A stretch of 49,412 nucleotides of DNA. Origin: Actinomycetota bacterium. GTDB lineage: Bacteria; Actinomycetota; Actinomycetes; Mycobacteriales; Pseudonocardiaceae. The translations under genes and the position numbers were made by a program. Positions 6,664-46,398 of this stretch are shown piece after piece (position 1 is the first letter of the stretch; the number at the start of each line of letters is the position of its first letter). The DNA lies in the NCBI GenBank assembly GCA_021324675.1, contig JAJPIR010000132.1, positions 1 to 49,412 of the forward strand, written 5' to 3'. The notes under the pieces are model-generated. The model did no database searches. It was not told the origin of the DNA and worked only from the letters and a program-made list of their open reading frames with translations.

Positions 6664-8133
6664 GTGCATGAGGACGTCGAGCGGTGCGTCCGCGCAGTCC
6701 AGTCGAAGGATGCGCGATTCGACGGCTGGTTTTTCGTCGCGGTGATCACGACCGGTATCTATTGCCGGCCGAGCTGCCCGGTGGTGCCACCCAAGCCGGA
6801 GAACATGCGCTTCTACCCGAGTGCGGCGGCGGCGCAGCTCGCCGGATTTCGAGCGTGCAAGCGGTGCCGCCCAGATGCCAGCCCTGGATCTCCGCAGTGG
6901 AACGAGCGTGCTGACCTGGTAGCTCGCGCAATGCGGTTGATCGCCGATGGGGTGGTCGACCGGGACGGCGTACCCGGGCTGGCCGCGCGGCTGGGATACA
7001 GCATCCGGCAGATCCAGCGGCAGCTGCTTGCCGAGCTAGGGGCCGGCCCGCTGGCGTTGGCGCGGGCGCAGCGCGCCCAGACCGCCCGGCTGCTGATCGA
7101 GACGAGCTCGCTCCCGATGAGCGACCTGGCCTTCGCCGCAGGCTTCGCCACGGTGCGGGCGTTCAACGACACTGTGCGCGAGGTTTTCGCCCTCACGCCG
7201 ACCGAGCTGCGCGCCCGTGCCGCGCGCAGGCAAGCGCCAGTAGCGTCCGGATCGCTGGTGCTGCGCCTGCCGTTCCGGGCGCCGCTGTGCCCGGACAACC
7301 TGTTCGGGCATCTGGCGGCGACCGCAGTACCCGGGGTAGAGGAGTGGCGTGACGGGGCTTACCGTCGCACCCTGCGGCTGCCGCACGGGTACGGGGTCGC
7401 GGCCTTGCGACCACTGCCTGATCACATCGAGTGCCGGTTGGTCTTGACGGAACTACGCGACCTGGCTACGGCGATTGCTCGCTGCCGGTGGCTGCTCGAT
7501 CTTGACGCGGACCCGGTGGCCGTCGACGAGCTGCTGCGCAGCGACCCGGTGCTCGCCCCGCTGGTGGACAAGAATCCCGGCCGCCGGGTGCCCCGCACCG
7601 TCGATGCGCCGGAATTGGCGGTACGCGCGGTGCTCGGTCAGCAGGTGTCAACCCAGGCGGCCTGCACCCATGCTGGGCGGTTGGTGGCCGCATACGGTGA
7701 CCCGGTGAACGATGCCGGAGGGGGCCTGACCCACCTGTTCCCCGATACCGCAGCGCTCGCCTCGCTGGACCCGGCTTCGCTTGCCGTACCGCAAGCGCGC
7801 CGCACCACGCTTACCTCCCTGGTCAGCGCCCTGACCACCGGTGAGATCGACCTCAGCCCCGCCAGTGATTGGCAACAGGCCCGTGCTCAGCTTGCTCGCC
7901 TCCCCGGTTTCGGTCCCTGGACCATCGAAACGATCGCGATGCGCGCGTTGGGTGACCCGGATGCTTTCGTTGCCGCCGATCTGGGGGTACGCCGCGCCGC
8001 CCGGAACCTCAACCTTCCGGTCAGCGCTCCGGGTCTAACCCGCCACGCCGCCGCATGGCGGCCTTGGCGCGCGTACGCCGTTCAGTACCTATGGGCATCC
8101 GGTGATCATCCGATCAACCGGTTGCCAGCGTGA
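6664..8133 (+). CDS. alkA: Ada-type activator fused to AlkA DNA-3-methyladenine glycosylase
   Basis: 489 residues with four parts. An Ada zinc domain carries Cys34, Cys38, Cys65 and Cys68 (GIYCRPSC, ACKRCRPDA); Cys34 is the expected methyl-phosphotriester acceptor. An AraC-type helix-turn-helix spans about 85-185. An AlkA N-terminal domain covers about 195-315. A HhH-GPD glycosylase domain runs from about 320 (VRAVLGQQVS, LPGFGPWTIETIAMRALG) with the catalytic Asp in FVAADLGVR. It senses alkylation damage, activates transcription, and excises alkylated purines. The GTG start opens MHEDVERCVRAVQSKDARFDGWF, the usual N-terminus of the family. The ogt gene follows 14 bases after the stop, consistent with one alkylation-repair operon. 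Confidence 0.95.
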   Translation: MHEDVERCVRAVQSKDARFDGWFFVAVITTGIYCRPSCPVVPPKPENMRFYPSAAAAQLAGFRACKRCRPDASPGSPQWNERADLVARAMRLIADGVVDRDGVPGLAARLGYSIRQIQRQLLAELGAGPLALARAQRAQTARLLIETSSLPMSDLAFAAGFATVRAFNDTVREVFALTPTELRARAARRQAPVASGSLVLRLPFRAPLCPDNLFGHLAATAVPGVEEWRDGAYRRTLRLPHGYGVAALRPLPDHIECRLVLTELRDLATAIARCRWLLDLDADPVAVDELLRSDPVLAPLVDKNPGRRVPRTVDAPELAVRAVLGQQVSTQAACTHAGRLVAAYGDPVNDAGGGLTHLFPDTAALASLDPASLAVPQARRTTLTSLVSALTTGEIDLSPASDWQQARAQLARLPGFGPWTIETIAMRALGDPDAFVAADLGVRRAARNLNLPVSAPGLTRHAAAWRPWRAYAVQYLWASGDHPINRLPA

Positions 8134-8147
8134 GGAGACAGACAACT

Positions 8148-8663
8148 GTGGAACATCGAGTACACACCATGGTGGACAGCCCGGTCGGCCCACTTACCCT
8201 GGCGGCCGTCGACGGCGTGCTCAGCGGCCTCTACATGAACCTGCAGCGGCACCGACCAATGGAAGAGACGTTCGGTGCCCCGGATCCCACCCCGTTCCAC
8301 GAGGTGATCAGGCAGCTAGCGGAGTACTTCGGCGGGCAACGAACCGACTTCGACGTGCCGATGACACTCGCTGGTACCCCGTTCCAGCGCACCGTGTGGG
8401 CGGCACTGCGCGAGATCCCCTACGGCCAAACGCGATCCTACGGCGAGCTGGCCGAGCAGATCGGCCGCCCGGGCGCCGCCCGTGCGGTCGGGCTGGCCAA
8501 CGGACGCAACCCGATCGGCATCATCGTGCCCTGCCATCGGGTGGTGGGCGCGACCGGCAGCCTTACCGGCTACGGCGGCGGTCTGGAACGCAAGCAGTAC
8601 CTGCTCGAATTCGAATACCGCAACCTTGCTCGCAACGGCGACAGCATGCTCCTGCACCCCTAA
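8148..8663 (+). CDS. ogt: Methylated-DNA--protein-cysteine methyltransferase
   Basis: About 171 residues. The N-terminal MGMT domain (TMVDSPVGPLTLAAVDGVL) precedes the DNA-binding and active-site domain (GTPFQRTVWAALREIPYGQTRSYGELA, ARAVGLANGRNP, IIVPCHRVVG). The Cys in PCHRV is the suicide acceptor that removes the methyl group from O6-methylguanine. GTG 8148 is preferred because GAGGAG lies ten bases upstream; the open frame also begins with a GTG at 8130 that overlaps the alkA stop. It is co-directional with and adjacent to the Ada-AlkA gene, so the two are likely co-transcribed. Confidence 0.95.
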   Translation: MEHRVHTMVDSPVGPLTLAAVDGVLSGLYMNLQRHRPMEETFGAPDPTPFHEVIRQLAEYFGGQRTDFDVPMTLAGTPFQRTVWAALREIPYGQTRSYGELAEQIGRPGAARAVGLANGRNPIGIIVPCHRVVGATGSLTGYGGGLERKQYLLEFEYRNLARNGDSMLLHP

Positions 8664-8695: not shown

Positions 8696-8757
8696 GCAGT
8701 CTGGATGCAGACTGCTGTTTTTAAGCTCCCGAAGACAGCAGTCTGCATCCAGAACGC
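8696..8757. repeat. Nested palindromic element, copy 1
   Basis: The left arm at 8696-8715 is GCAGTCTGGATGCAGACTGC, itself a hairpin (8-bp stem, GATG loop). The right arm from 8738 is its reverse complement, with the last few bases diverged. Bases between the arms (8716-8737) are A/T-rich on the left. It lies 32 bases after the ogt stop, a position suited to transcription termination. Copies 2 and 3 lie near 31267 and 37639. Confidence 0.8.
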
Positions 8758-8940: not shown

Positions 8941-9039
8941 CTCGGAGATCGCTCGGAGATCGCTCGGAGACCACTCGGAGACCACTCGGAGATGACTCGG
9001 AAATGACTCGGAAATGACTCGGAAATGACTCGGAAATGA
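8941..9039 (+). repeat. Nine-unit 11-bp tandem repeat leading into a P450 start codon
   Basis: Nine contiguous 11-bp units begin with CTCGGA. Units 1-4 end in GATCG or GACCA, unit 5 in GATGA, and units 6-9 in AATGA. The last unit contains the ATG of the P450 gene. From 8992 each unit carries ATG with an overlapping TGA. Confidence 0.92.
8992..9039 (+). promoter_or_regulatory. Chain of four overlapping MTRK mini-ORFs coupled to the P450 start
   Basis: ATG codons at 8992, 9003, 9014 and 9025 each open a four-codon frame (Met-Thr-Arg-Lys) ending in TGA. Each TGA overlaps the next ATG as ATGA, and the last one overlaps the P450 ATG at 9036. The geometry matches translational coupling or reinitiation. 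Whether the mini-ORFs are translated is not known; only weak GGA elements precede them. Confidence 0.5.
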
Positions 9040-10241
9040 CACTGACGACCCCGACCAGCGACGAGCTGCCCCGCATGCCTTTCCCGCGGCCTAGCGTGCT
9101 GGATATCGCGCCGCTATCCCGGATGTTGCAAGCCACCGCTCCCATCACCCCGGTGCGCACCCCCGCCGGTGATGTCGCGTGGCTTGTCACCGGGTATGCC
9201 GAGGTCAAGGCTTTGCTGGCGGACCCCCGGCTCGGCCGTTCGCATCCCGATCCGGAACGCGCCGCCCGGTTTTCTGCTTCCGCGATCCTTGGCGGCCCCT
9301 CCGGCGACCCCGCCACGGAGGCTGCCGACCACGCCGTGATGCGCCGGCTGCTCACCCCGGCGTTCTCTGCTCGTCGCATGCGGGCGCTGCAGACACATGT
9401 CACCGAGCTGGTCGATACGCTGCTGGACCAGCTCGCTGGCCAGGGCAGTCCGGCGGACCTGCATGAGTCACTGTCTTTTCCGCTGCCTGTGCAGGTGATC
9501 TGCGAATTGCTCGGCGTGCCTTTCAGCGACCGGGACCAGTTCCGGATCTGGTCGGCCAGTGCCAGCAATGTCTCCGATCGCAAGGTCGCCACTGACGGGC
9601 TCAAGCAGCTAGTCGACTACATGCACCAGCTGATCACCCACAAGCGGGCCCATCCCGGCCAGGACGTGATCTCTGATCTGATCGCCGCCCAGGCCGATGT
9701 GCACCTCGGCGACGAGGGCATTGCCGGGCTAGCCGCCGCGCTACTGTTCGCTGGCCACGAAACCACCGTGACGCGCATCGACTGCGGCACCCTGCTGCTG
9801 CTCACCCATCCCGGCCAGTACGACGCCCTCCGGCACAATCCTGAGCTGGTCGAGGGCGCGGTCGAGGAGATCCTGCGGATGGCGGCTCCTGGCGGTGGGG
9901 GCCTACCTCGCTACGCCAAGGACGACATCGAGCTGGCCGGTGTGACCATCCGCGCGGGGGACGCGGTGCTGCTCAACGGTGTCGTCGCTAACCGCGACGC
10001 CGCCACGTTCCCGGATCCCGACCGTTTCGTCATCACCCGAGCCCCTAATCCGCACCTGTCTTTTGGACACGGCCCCCGATTCTGTATCGGCGCCAGTCTC
10101 GCTCGCCTCGAACTGCAAGCCGTGTTCACCGCGCTACCCCGGCGTTTCCCTCATCTCCAGCTGGCCGTCCCCTTGACGAAACTTCAACTGCGCACCGACA
10201 CGTTCATCGGTGGGTTCACCGCGCTACCGGTCAGGTGGTGA
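9036..10241 (+). CDS. Cytochrome P450 (bacterial class I type)
   Basis: 401 residues, normal length for soluble bacterial P450s. The I-helix motif is AALLFAGHETTVTR, the K-helix ERR-type motif is EEILRM, and the haem loop is FGHGPRFCIG with the axial Cys at about residue 350. MMR-like sequence at DHAVMRRLLTPAFSARRMRAL matches the C-helix. It needs external ferredoxin and reductase partners, none of which is encoded nearby, and no biosynthetic genes flank it, so the substrate is unknown. The ATG lies in the last unit of the 11-bp tandem repeat and overlaps a mini-ORF stop, so translation may depend on that array. Confidence 0.95.
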   Translation: MTLTTPTSDELPRMPFPRPSVLDIAPLSRMLQATAPITPVRTPAGDVAWLVTGYAEVKALLADPRLGRSHPDPERAARFSASAILGGPSGDPATEAADHAVMRRLLTPAFSARRMRALQTHVTELVDTLLDQLAGQGSPADLHESLSFPLPVQVICELLGVPFSDRDQFRIWSASASNVSDRKVATDGLKQLVDYMHQLITHKRAHPGQDVISDLIAAQADVHLGDEGIAGLAAALLFAGHETTVTRIDCGTLLLLTHPGQYDALRHNPELVEGAVEEILRMAAPGGGGLPRYAKDDIELAGVTIRAGDAVLLNGVVANRDAATFPDPDRFVITRAPNPHLSFGHGPRFCIGASLARLELQAVFTALPRRFPHLQLAVPLTKLQLRTDTFIGGFTALPVRW

Positions 10242-30969: not shown

Positions 30970-31236
30970 ATGAGTACTCCCCTGCAACTCGCCCATCAGT
31001 GGTGGGAAACCCTCGATCAAACCGACCGGCAACGGGTCTGGAACGCGCGCCACAGCTACCTCGCAGGCGACCTCGTCGAGAGCATGGCCAAAGCTGGCGT
31101 TCCTGTGGTCAGCGACGGTCGCTGGTCGTGCGTCGGCGTTGGACCTACTGGTTTCACCGTGCCGGTGGCCCTTGAACAGCTCCTCGAGTGGTTGTCCCAG
31201 GCGCCCGACAGCGTTGGCGCGGGCGGTTTCCCCTAG
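30970..31236 (+). CDS. Small hypothetical protein
   Basis: 88 residues, soluble. The sequence STPLQLAHQWWETLDQTDRQRVWNARHSYLAGDL is helical; the second half (VVSDGRWSCVGVGPTGFTVPVALEQLLEWL) looks like a beta hairpin followed by a helix. I do not recognise the family. ATG 30970 has AGAAGG about 13 bases upstream. It converges on the PLP enzyme gene; a palindromic element lies between the two stops. Confidence 0.65.
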   Translation: MSTPLQLAHQWWETLDQTDRQRVWNARHSYLAGDLVESMAKAGVPVVSDGRWSCVGVGPTGFTVPVALEQLLEWLSQAPDSVGAGGFP

Positions 31237-31266: not shown

Positions 31267-31330
31267 GCAATCTGGATGCAGACTGGTGTTTTCAGGCCCG
31301 GTTTCGCCGCAGTCTGCATCCAGACTGCGG
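31267..31330. repeat. Nested palindromic element, copy 2
   Basis: The left arm GCAATCTGGATGCAGACTGG (31267-31286) differs at a few positions from the consensus. The right arm GCAGTCTGCATCCAGACTGC (31309-31328) is perfect and is flanked by CC and GG, extending its own hairpin. The arms are separated by a T-rich then GGCCCGG-containing centre. It sits between convergent genes ending at 31236 and 31343, a bidirectional-terminator position. Confidence 0.85.
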
Positions 31331-31342
31331 GGTGGCCGGAGC

Positions 31343-32545
31343 TCACCGGTAAGCCGGGAGTGCGTTGGTCAGACGATCGAGTTCGTCCTCGGTGTTGTAG
31401 TAGTGGACCGAGGCGCGTACCAGTTCAGGCAGGCCTCGGCGGGGTAGGTCGAAGCGTGCGGAGCTGGCGTACGAGACGCTGGTATTGATCCCCGCCGCGG
31501 CGAGGCGGCGCTGCACTTCGCGGGCGGGCAGCCCGTCGACGGTGAACGTGACGATGCCGCAGCGACGCCGGCCCTGGTCATGAACCCGCACACCATCGAC
31601 AGCACGCAGCCGGTCGCGTAAGCCTTCGGCCAGAGCAGTGATCCGGGCTTCGATCGCGTCGACTCCCCAGGACAAGGCATAGTCGGCGGCTACTCCCAGC
31701 CCGATCTTGGCAGCGTAATTGGTCTCCCAGCTTTCGAACCGGCGCGAGCCAGGCTGCATCTCATAGTGCTCCGGAGCGGTCCAGGTGGCGGCGTGCAGGT
31801 CGAGAAACGGTGGCTCGACACGGTCGAGAACGGAGCTCCGCGCGTACAGGAAGCCGGTGCCGCGGGGTCCGCGCAGATATTTACGCCCGGTGGCGGACAG
31901 GAAGTCGCATCCGATGCGCTGGACGTCGAGGTGCAGCTGGCCGACCGACTGGCAGGCGTCGAGGAGGAACAGCACCCCAGCTTCGCGGGCGAGGGCGCCG
32001 ACCTCCTCGGCGGGGTTCACCAACCCACCCTGCGTTGGTACGTGGGTGATGGCGATGAGCTTCACGTCACCGCCTCGGGTGTCCCGGCCGCCCTGGCCTT
32101 CCAGCCGCCGCCGCAGGTCGGAGACGCACAGCTGGCCGTGCTCATCGTCGTCGACGACCTCGACGACAGCGCCGGTGCGGCGCGCGACCTGCAGGAAGGC
32201 GATAACGTTGCTGGCGTACTCAGCGTGGCCGGTGAGGATGCGATCGCCGGGCTGGAACGGTATGGCGTAGAAGGCCATATCCCAGGCCCGGGTCGCGTTC
32301 TCGGTGACTGCGATTTCGTCCGCCCGGCAACCGATCAATCTGGCTATCGCGCGGTACGTCGCCTCGACCTGCGCGGCGGCCGCTGCGGCGGCTTCGTAAC
32401 CGCCGATTGCGGCTTCCAGGCGCAGGTGCGCGATCACCGTTTCGGTCACTGGTGACGGTGGCAACGCCGCCCCAGCGTTGTTCAGATGCGCTACCCGGGC
32501 TGTTCCGGGTGTTTCACGCCGAGCGCGGGCAACATCAAAGGCCAT
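31343..32545 (-). CDS. Aminotransferase class V-fold PLP-dependent enzyme
   Basis: 400 residues. Family features are VAHLNNAGAALPPSPVTETV, TENATRAWDMAFYAI, AEYASNVIAFLQVARRTGAVVEVV, THVPTQGGLVNPAEEVGALA, FLLDACQSVGQLHLDVQRIGCDFLSATGRKYLRGPRGTGFLY. The Asp in LDACQSVGQ contacts the PLP ring and the Lys in GRKYLRGP forms the Schiff base. It resembles cysteine desulfurase-like and C-S lyase-like members; the substrate is not evident. The gene stands alone on the minus strand between two plus-strand blocks. Confidence 0.93.
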   Translation of the reverse strand: MAFDVARARRETPGTARVAHLNNAGAALPPSPVTETVIAHLRLEAAIGGYEAAAAAAAQVEATYRAIARLIGCRADEIAVTENATRAWDMAFYAIPFQPGDRILTGHAEYASNVIAFLQVARRTGAVVEVVDDDEHGQLCVSDLRRRLEGQGGRDTRGGDVKLIAITHVPTQGGLVNPAEEVGALAREAGVLFLLDACQSVGQLHLDVQRIGCDFLSATGRKYLRGPRGTGFLYARSSVLDRVEPPFLDLHAATWTAPEHYEMQPGSRRFESWETNYAAKIGLGVAADYALSWGVDAIEARITALAEGLRDRLRAVDGVRVHDQGRRRCGIVTFTVDGLPAREVQRRLAAAGINTSVSYASSARFDLPRRGLPELVRASVHYYNTEDELDRLTNALPAYR

Positions 32546-37638: not shown

Positions 37639-37704
37639 CCGCAGTCTGGATGCAGACTGCGGTTTTCGGCCCCGGTTTCACCGCAGTCTGCATCCAGACT
37701 GCGG
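37639..37704. repeat. Nested palindromic element, copy 3 (perfect)
   Basis: The left arm 37639-37662 has core GCAGTCTGGATGCAGACTGC and the right arm 37681-37704 has core GCAGTCTGCATCCAGACTGC, each flanked by CC and GG. The two 24-bp arms are exact inverted repeats, and each arm alone folds into a 10-bp hairpin with GATG or CATC loops. Eighteen bases separate them. It lies between convergent transcription units, as does copy 2. Confidence 0.9.
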
Positions 37705-37731: not shown

Positions 37732-38280
37732 TTAACCGGTGATGAGGGGGAAGAGGTACCGATCGGCCACGAGTGCGAGCACTCGCCGCGCCGACTGCGG
37801 TGACTCTACGACAGCGCGCGGCACGCTGGTCCCCACCCGCTGATAGGCACGGCGCGCCAGCTCCTCAAGCAGTCCCGACAGCGCCGTGGCCAGCCGCTTG
37901 CGCCGCCCGGGACCCTCCGGGTCCACCGGTCCTTCGATGGTGGACAGCCGCAAGCCAGTAGCCTGCTGCAGCCGGGCGATCTCGACCAGACCAAGCGAGC
38001 GTTCGGCGTAGCCGGGAAATACGCCAGCCAGAAACAGGGCGCCGTCGCCGATGCGTCGCCACAGCCCGGGCTGCTCGTCCACCGGCAAGACCTGCCGCAA
38101 AGCAGCCAGGCAAGGCAGGTCCAGCTCGTCCCACCGCTGCCGTTGCCAGCCGTGCTCGCCGCGCTGCCACACCCTTCCCGGGGCCAGCCGGGCATAGGAA
38201 GCCAGCAGCTCGGCCAGAAACAGGCGATGCTGCGGCTTCGTGGCGAAGGACGCCAGCACCGGCCCGTCGAAGAGCGGCAA
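37732..38280 (-). CDS. Conserved hypothetical protein
   Basis: 182 residues, no signal or membrane segment. Arg- and Leu-rich, with FDGPVLASFATKPQHRLFLAELLASYARLAPGRVWQRG at the N-terminus, WRRIGDGALFLAGVFPGYAERSLGLVEIARLQQATG in the middle, and RRVLALVADRYLFPLITG at the C-terminus. The coherent helical sequence and convergent placement support a real gene, but I cannot name the family. The start at 38280 is about 75 bases from the divergent MBL hydrolase start. The stop lies just after palindromic element copy 3. Confidence 0.7.
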   Translation of the reverse strand: MPLFDGPVLASFATKPQHRLFLAELLASYARLAPGRVWQRGEHGWQRQRWDELDLPCLAALRQVLPVDEQPGLWRRIGDGALFLAGVFPGYAERSLGLVEIARLQQATGLRLSTIEGPVDPEGPGRRKRLATALSGLLEELARRAYQRVGTSVPRAVVESPQSARRVLALVADRYLFPLITG

Positions 38281-45175: not shown

Positions 45176-46297
45176 ATGAGTGTGGCTGGTTGGCTGCGGA
45201 TCTCGGTCGACCATCTACGGCAGCGGTGGTTGCTTGTGGTCGAGTCGACCGCTGCCGCCACCGGTGCGTGGTTTTTGGCTACCCGGTTCGTTGGCCATCC
45301 CCAGCCGTTCTTTGCGCCGGCAGCGGCGATTATCGTGCTGGCGCAGGTGCGAGGTCAGCGGACACGGCGAGCAGTCGAGGTTGTCCTCGGTGTCGCGGGC
45401 GGCGTCCTGGTTGCCGACGTGGTCATCCAGGCTCTCGGTGCTCACAATGCGTGGACCATCTTCACGGTCATCCTGCTGACGCTCACCGTCGCGGTCGCGG
45501 TCGGGGCGAGCACGGTCGCGCTCGTCCAAGCAGCGGTATCTGCCGTGTATCTCGTGGTGGTTGTGCCGCCGACGCCGACCGCGGTGCCATTGCGGTTCAT
45601 CGACGCGCTGGTGGGTGGTGCGGTTGCGCTGCTGGCGAGTCAGCTCGCCGCAGGCCGGGACCCGGTCGCGCCGCTGGTCCGTGAATCAGGGCAAATCTTC
45701 GACGAGCTGGGTAGCGTGCTTGAACAGGTTGCCGCCGCGCTCGATCGGCAGGACGAGACCGCAGCCCGGGAAGCACTGGACCGCGCGCGACGTGCGGAGG
45801 ATGTGCTCGAGCGGCTGCAAACCGCGGTCCTGGCGGCGGGGGAGACGCTATCGCTGCAAGTATGGCGACGGCGGCGGCTCGGTGGGATCCATGCGGTTGA
45901 TGCGGCCACTCGTCAAGTGGACTATGCCGTGCGCAACGTGCGCGTGCTGGCACGTGCCGGAGTGACGCTGACCCGGCTGCCAGCAATGCCACCGCCGGCC
46001 CTGGGCGATGCACTGCGCTCGTTCGCCGCTGCGGTGGGTGCTGTCCATGATGCGCTGGCGGCTGACCTGATGGGGCCGGATGAGGCGATAAGGCGCCGTA
46101 CCGAGGAAGCCGAGACGACCGTGTTGAATGCTCTCAGGGTGGCTGTGCGTGCGCTTGCCGGGGACCCACCGTTACCGGTTGTGATGATCGTTGGCCAGTT
46201 GCGCTTGACGGCTATCGACCTCATGCGGGGAATCGGTGCAGACGACGTCGACATCCTGACCCGGGTCGACGAGGCGTTCGGCCTCCCACCGGTGTAG
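45176..46297 (+). CDS. FUSC family membrane protein
   Basis: 373 residues. About six membrane segments fill the first 160 residues (VVESTAAATGAWFLATRFV, FFAPAAAIIVLAQVRGQRTRRAVEVVLGVAGGVLVADVV, TLTVAVAVGASTVALVQAAVSAVYLVVVV), a FUSC-type half-unit. The cytoplasmic half is helical and Ala/Arg-rich (LDRARRAEDVLERLQTAVLAAGETLS). Relatives include aromatic-acid exporter subunits; the substrate here is unknown. GGAGGA precedes the ATG by about seven bases. Confidence 0.88.
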   Translation: MSVAGWLRISVDHLRQRWLLVVESTAAATGAWFLATRFVGHPQPFFAPAAAIIVLAQVRGQRTRRAVEVVLGVAGGVLVADVVIQALGAHNAWTIFTVILLTLTVAVAVGASTVALVQAAVSAVYLVVVVPPTPTAVPLRFIDALVGGAVALLASQLAAGRDPVAPLVRESGQIFDELGSVLEQVAAALDRQDETAAREALDRARRAEDVLERLQTAVLAAGETLSLQVWRRRRLGGIHAVDAATRQVDYAVRNVRVLARAGVTLTRLPAMPPPALGDALRSFAAAVGAVHDALAADLMGPDEAIRRRTEEAETTVLNALRVAVRALAGDPPLPVVMIVGQLRLTAIDLMRGIGADDVDILTRVDEAFGLPPV

Positions 46298-46398
46298 TCC
46301 GCACCCTTCAACTGGTCCCGCGGTCGGCACGCGTGGCCCGGTACTGAGCACGCGTAGTTGCGTGACAACCGGGCAGCCGGCGTAGAACGATCGTCGGC

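Follow-up and report, generated by a model that had tools for sequence, protein, structure and literature searches.

A nested palindrome lies at positions 37639–37704 of a 49,412-nt stretch of DNA (here called the window) from an actinobacterial draft genome (G000; 5.63 Mb, 364 contigs). Is it a terminator, a mobile repeat, or both? The initial annotation described two hairpin arms in exact inverted repeat, present in three copies, and suggested a mobile terminator or REP-like family.

Anatomy and folding of the element

The element is a pair of inverted 20-nt arms separated by a spacer, usually of 22 nt, for a total of 62 bases. In copy 3, each arm is indeed a hairpin and the two are exact inverted repeats (Table 1); the arms, together with CC/GG outside and GGT/ACC inside, make up the stem of one long hairpin. 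All three reported copies (8696, 31267 and 37639) were located, but only copy 3 is perfect, copies 1 and 2 each being imperfect in one arm; arm 2 of copy 1 ends in AACGC in place of ACTGC. The arm pattern, allowing up to three mismatches, gave 12 strand-matches in the window (six arms read on both strands), against a mean of 0.03 in shuffled sequence. Spacers of the three copies are unlike one another and lack symmetry, and hence the claim that the element has the same form on both strands does not hold.

Table 1. Element copies and neighbouring genes in the window.
Feature	Position	Strand	Description
Methylated-DNA-cysteine methyltransferase (Ogt)-like gene	8130–8663	+	upstream of copy 1
Copy 1	8696–8757	+	arm 1 perfect, then TGTTTTTA; arm 2 imperfect
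Copy 2	31267–31328	.	arm 1 with two changes; arm 2 perfect
SufS/EgtE-like PLP enzyme gene	31343–32545	−	convergent on copy 2, 14 nt off
Copy 3	37641–37702 (stem reaches 37639–37704)	.	25-bp long-hairpin stem
Copy 3, arm 1	37641–37660	+	GCAGTCTGGATGCAGACTGC; 8-bp hairpin, 4-nt GATG loop; then GGTTTTC
Copy 3, spacer	37661–37682		22 nt
Copy 3, arm 2	37683–37702	−	exact inverted repeat of arm 1; 8-bp hairpin, 4-nt loop; − strand continues GGTGAAA, without T-run
ORF	37732–38280	−	convergent on copy 3, 29 nt off

Copy 1 starts 32 nt past the stop codon of the Ogt-like gene, in a gap between two + strand genes. Copies 2 and 3 occupy convergent gaps, so the earlier statement that the element occurs twice between convergent genes is correct. 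Copy 2 is flanked by a + strand ORF of 88 aa, taken from a mechanical ORF list, whose end is at 31236, and by a − strand gene that ends at 31343; for copy 3, the nearest callable + strand gene ends 330 nt away. Three further features of the window differ or recur among relatives. An 11-bp tandem repeat of nine copies (8941–9040), ahead of a P450 gene and adjoining copy 1, is much shorter in the congener G004. A 45-bp segment inside the ORF next to copy 3 (37879–37923) is 100% identical at G004:C64:61715–61759 and ∼90% identical in G008 and G001. At 45540–46359, G000 has ∼700 bp more than G004, and the site of change holds an element copy found in G004 alone.

Folded as RNA, 37639–37704 yields a long hairpin of −54.5 kcal/mol (z = −11.4), compared to −14.7 for either small hairpin folded together with its tail. 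To assess covariation, we tabulated 105 of 117 catalogued elements, namely those of 62-nt length with full flanks. Arm positions 3–4 and 17–18 are variable. Pairs 3–60, 4–59, 17–46 and 18–45 of the long hairpin are formed in 93, 94, 98 and 98 of the 105 elements (shuffled means 62, 62, 84 and 80), whereas pairs 3–18 and 4–17 of the small hairpins are formed in 77 and 74 (shuffled means 68 and 69). Covariation is strong across the long hairpin and weak across the two small ones, indicating that the long hairpin is the structure followed by evolution throughout the genus. Perfect small-hairpin arms are seen in 127 of 150 cases in G000 and G004, versus 15 of 84 in the five other carriers, with the caveat that exact arms were the selection criterion for the loci of G000 and for most of those of G004, which inflates arm perfection and lowers arm divergence. 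Kissing of the GATG and CATC loops, also envisaged initially, was rejected as an unsupported function. Inverting a hairpin arm yields complementary loops automatically, nothing was found beyond this trivial complementarity, and the long hairpin, which covariation favours, is far more stable.

Size, range and placement of the family

A genome search for the arm had been proposed as a test, and further copies were found. Counting pairs in which the 12-nt cores of both arms are intact, we obtained 74 in G000 and 38, 21, 14, 6, 6 and 2 in its congeners G004, G001, G008, G010, G002 and G009, respectively. There were none in congeners G003, G005, G006 and G007, and none among 286 sampled genomes from other genera of the same family (Pseudonocardiaceae). 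Strand counts for the arm at two to three mismatches were not used as copy numbers; they run to about twice the arm number, because a good arm also matches the opposite strand with two mismatches. An exact-arm search of a named genome collection returned 19 stretches, 18 from the Pseudonocardiales MAG CP_BM_RX_74 and one from the Pseudonocardiaceae MAG GZL_FP_2_bin.41. Judging by common element sequences, these MAGs are probably G004 and G010. The exact core-pair pattern was absent from viral contigs, and Rfam gave no match at gathering score across the window. We also discarded the idea of a known RNA family: the sub-threshold Rfam matches to a 161-base stretch were mostly microRNA hairpins, far below the cut-offs. 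In the literature searched, we found no match to the arm sequence and no account of such repeats in Pseudonocardiaceae or Pseudonocardia.

Our catalogue holds 117 distinct elements from seven genomes, 75 of them in G000 and G004 and 42 in the five other carriers. Every spacer was distinct among the first 40 aligned copies, and most were 22 nt long. In the wider catalogue, spacers of 19 to 34 nt also occur, and G001 (L118) and G010 (L033) have one spacer in common. One G001 locus, L132:1552–1654, carries a three-arm array made of two overlapping arm pairs with spacings of ∼41 and 42 bp.

Gene contexts were assigned with our own simple gene caller, based on G+C by frame, which misses small genes and trims starts. 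From 108 distinct elements, we excluded five at locus edges and three inside called genes. The remaining 100, from seven genomes and with both neighbours called, comprise 34 in convergent, 54 in tandem and 12 in divergent gaps. For background, we used element-free gaps of at least 30 nt in the same stretches, which had themselves been selected for holding an element; these number 30 convergent, 172 tandem and 66 divergent. Relative to this background, elements are enriched in convergent gaps (P = 2 × 10−6) and depleted in divergent ones (P = 0.009). The median distance from element to stop codon is 19 nt in convergent gaps and 17.5 nt in tandem pairs, and in 42 of 54 tandem pairs the element is closer to the upstream stop (31 of 54 with the longest possible downstream start). 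The suggestion of a dispersed REP-like family is thus borne out: the element is a genus-restricted, REPIN-like repeat family, intergenic and enriched in convergent gaps.

An outward excess of G over C was seen on both sides of the element, over 0–90 nt, with a skew of 0.53 in the first 10 nt and 0.06 at 90–150 nt; it has faded by 60–150 nt. The excess is alike whether a side faces the end or the start of a gene, irrespective of gene direction.

Shared sites, spread and comparison with REPINs

Syntenic DNA of G000 and G004 is ∼87–91% identical. For nine G000 copies (three in the window and two each in L063, L083 and L088), the corresponding G004 region was checked blind to its content. Seven are present, one of these at a synteny break, and the other two are absent or reduced to a remnant. 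No clean empty site was obtained: at the 8696 site, G004 keeps a short GCAGTCT remnant, and at L088:7043 the gap is ∼57 nt shorter and contains unrelated sequence. The copy at L083:9653 is absent from G008 and G001.

Of 16 pairs of loci examined, four were excluded as one flank did not align (L042/L094, L048/L064, L061/L030 and L032/L026). The comparison of arms with spacers lists 18 pairs, L063:3223/L158 being left out and L063:7402 compared by eye only. Five of the shared sites were selected with G000 as the sole criterion. Their arms show 9 changes over 200 positions, four of them in one rearranged copy, and identity is 0.85 for spacers and 0.77 for 30-nt flanks. Since the average alignment between unrelated spacers reaches 0.64, the spacer identity represents a modest signal. 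In ten pairs chosen for good arms in both species, 2 of 400 arm positions have changed, and spacers and flanks are 0.79 and 0.71 identical. Overall, arms at shared sites change about threefold less than spacers. These data show that the arms are conserved in sequence and pairing at sites common to species, and hence the element is probably kept for an RNA or DNA function at gene 3′ ends.

The spacer appears inverted in 2 of 15 G000/G004 pairs. For L030/L046, the match is 0.95 inverted versus 0.59 direct, which exceeds the 95th percentile for unrelated spacers (0.82); for L085/L035, the values are 0.77 and 0.55, within that percentile. Small loop inversions between inverted repeats have been reported for chloroplast DNA. 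Synteny between G000 and G004 breaks at one element copy (L088:3005–3066; L152; L153), the left flank and full element being on one G004 contig and the right flank and one arm on another. Copies may therefore act as recombination points.

Between G000 and G001, the orthologous site L065/L057 differs by the same two bases in both outer halves, so that an element's arms change in step. This coordinated difference would fit a site recognised by a sequence-specific protein that binds DNA or RNA, such as a nucleoid or 3′-end factor, reading TCTGGATGCAGA, with the arms 42 bp apart (four helical turns) setting the geometry of a dimer. The 12-nt core is nearly invariant beyond the needs of pairing, and most spacers are 22 nt, which also speaks for such a protein. 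However, the core was also our search key, so its invariance is inflated, and the range of spacer lengths noted above counts against it. We regard a binding site as a doubtful explanation.

Was the family mobile? On the positive side, spacers at different G001 loci share up to 21 of 22 bases, compared to a null maximum of 20 in 200 simulated sets; the best cross-locus spacer match in G000 is 20 (null maximum 21), and that in G004 equals its null maximum. Copies also differ in presence or absence between relatives. The near-identical G001 spacers and these presence/absence differences point to past spread, and to this extent the proposed mobility stands. No parent element came to light, the genome-wide search covering the Y1 family. 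We looked, as had been proposed, for a REP-type transposase, and found no RAYT (Y1_Tnp, PF01797) in any of 11 genomes of the genus (drafts, 87–98% complete), while 5 of 14 control genomes were positive. None of the 117 elements has abutting direct repeats of at least 4 nt. Abutting 2-nt repeats number 5 versus 2.1 in shuffled data (21 of 500 shuffles reach 5), and 5-mers common to both flanks within 12 nt number 6 versus 3.2 (45 of 500 shuffles reach 6). Nor is there a constant tag within 8 nt of the arm: GTAG occurs in 20 of 234 outward flanks and CGTC in 2. GTAG is nevertheless enriched beside the arm, with 2 and 4 occurrences in the next two 8-nt tiles.

A purely selfish REPIN- or MITE-like repeat could account for several of these features. 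Moved in trans by an unrecognised transposase, it would be tolerated near the ends of genes, insertion at other places being harmful. The near-identical G001 spacers, the presence/absence differences and the minority enrichment of GTAG, the usual REP tag, are all in its favour, and ordinary REPs are also biased to convergent and tandem gaps, as reported by Di Nocera 2013 (PMC3733652). Against it are the absence of Y1 transposase from the 11 congeners in the face of positive controls, the lack of clear target duplication, and the slower change of arms than of spacers and flanks at shared sites, which is unexpected for dead neutral copies. On balance we think this explanation possible, though on the unlikely side.

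In structure and placement, the family resembles known REP dimers. It has two REP-like inverted palindromes, a hairpin, conserved ends and a variable spacer, and its many copies are extragenic and away from divergent promoters, with only the three noted above inside called genes. REPINs are REP doublets that form hairpins (Bertels and Rainey 2011, PMC3116915). They share with our family two conserved inverted palindromic units, a less conserved spacer, a hairpin, an extragenic location and many copies; they differ in dimension, GI doublets having 71 bp between 16-mers versus an arm spacing of 42 bp here. Our family also departs from them in that no RAYT was found in 11 congeners and that two species have inward T-runs. 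REP dimers tagged with CGTC have been reported without a dedicated transposase, and REP dimers may fold separately or as a single large stem-loop (PMC3733652). The dimers in that account are like ours in being inverted pairs of small palindromes with no known transposase, in preferring convergent and tandem gaps, and in having some spacers of similar length and different sequence; they are unlike ours in their tag, CGTC and GTAG being confined here to the few flanks counted above. The family works most like a REPIN or REP dimer at gene ends, but no RAYT was found in the 11 genomes and there is no constant tag. With neither of these and no clear target duplication, we do not file it as a REPIN, and a RAYT-driven REPIN is rejected by the absence of PF01797 from those 11 genomes of the genus.

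Terminator-like form in two species

A G+C-rich hairpin followed directly by a T-run, the anatomy of an intrinsic terminator, is present in G000 and G004. In a core-selected sample (50 of 74 G000 pairs, 7 of 38 G004 pairs and 28 of 49 pairs from the five other species), T-runs of at least four lie inward of the arm at 54 of 114 exits in G000 and G004 versus 0 of 56 in the five relatives. By the terminator rule of our scanner, 60 of 150 inward exits pass in G000 and G004 versus 6 of 150 outward exits; of the 75 elements, 50 pass on one side or both, 10 of them on both. The five other carriers have no passing inward exit among 84 and a single passing outward exit among 84, and none of their 42 elements passes on an inward side. 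Termination is therefore not a role common to the whole family, and the proposal of a terminator holds, as anatomy, for one lineage.

Selection for directional terminators was tested with a negative result, the T-runs ignoring gene direction. In 32 tandem cases, the mean T count is 3.97 on both the sense and the antisense side, with runs of at least four in 16 versus 12, and exits facing a stop codon are no richer in T than other exits (P = 0.94). This lack of direction favours the selfish repeat, whose T-runs would simply have come with the master copy behind the G000/G004 subfamily.

The anatomy of the G000 and G004 copies nonetheless makes a terminator function plausible. They look like intrinsic terminators facing both ways: two predicted terminators, placed back to back within a single long hairpin. 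In these species, each arm would most likely serve as an intrinsic terminator for transcription arriving from its own side. The first arm would fold once made, RNA polymerase would stop in the T-run, and the second arm would serve the opposite direction. In RNA read through both arms, the long hairpin would form instead and shield the 3′ end. Bidirectional intrinsic terminators are known, and the DNA-uptake-sequence terminators of Neisseria and Pasteurellaceae are an example of a shared repeat doing this. Like these, the G000/G004 element has a hairpin and T-run readable from both strands and lies between convergent genes; it differs in that each direction has its own hairpin within a larger hairpin, with a role that is predicted from sequence.

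The explanation that we prefer as a whole, a genus-restricted REPIN-like family of long hairpins behind genes that doubles as two-sided intrinsic terminators in G000 and G004, has in our estimate about an even chance of being right. It would entail a family with a present or past ability to spread for which no RAYT-type transposase is recognisable. Several findings count against it: the T-runs ignore gene direction, no inward exit passes in the five other carriers, a terminator scan of the window flagged copy 1 and not copies 2 and 3, and 12 of the 100 copies occupy gaps called as divergent.

A genome from a sister genus (g3; G012, L163–L187; one contig of 5.55 Mb, of which 500 kb were read) offers a parallel. 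There, 23 of 56 convergent gaps of at least 30 nt contain a hairpin with 12-bp arms, and most of the 14 listed are unrelated in sequence. Such hairpins might suggest that our elements, too, are ordinary independent actinobacterial terminators, alike by chance or convergence. Occurrence of the same 20-nt arms at dozens of loci, set against the shuffled expectation per window given above, refutes this, and we give the idea almost no credence.

The same genome contains a second paired-arm family, whose GATCTTGAGGCGTTGTGG arms are spaced by 30 bp and give 54 and 49 strand matches over the whole genome; the arm had no match in the literature searched. Thirteen elements fall in the 500 kb, seven in convergent, six in tandem and none in divergent gaps, an enrichment in convergent gaps, and three G012 congeners give strand matches of 25/27, 3/3 and 0/1. 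Y1 transposase has no match in the complete G012 genome and one match each in two of these three congeners. Compensatory stem changes occur in the GATCTTGAGGCGTTGTGG family, members of which lie, for example, at G012:C1:93351–93398 and 304727–304774. Like our element, this family has an inverted arm pair, one long hairpin and no Y1 match in G012; it differs in its unrelated arm sequence, a 12-nt spacer and the lack of T-runs in the 13 elements seen. A broader idea, which we offer tentatively and consider rather improbable, is that hairpin repeats with no recognisable transposase form a recurrent host system in this actinobacterial family, with genus-specific arms changed in concert over the loci by a sequence-specific factor or by recombination, and that one lineage turned them into genome-wide double-sided terminators.

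What appears to be new here, as far as sequence comparison can tell, is a repeat of the REPIN kind without a recognisable transposase, together with a lineage-specific terminator-like form. The family adds a REPIN-like case in an actinobacterial genus where no RAYT was found, and its orthologous copies display, among related species, arm conservation, apparent spacer inversion and T-runs confined to one lineage. Should these copies prove to be terminators, they would illustrate how a dispersed repeat becomes recruited as a standard transcription stop.
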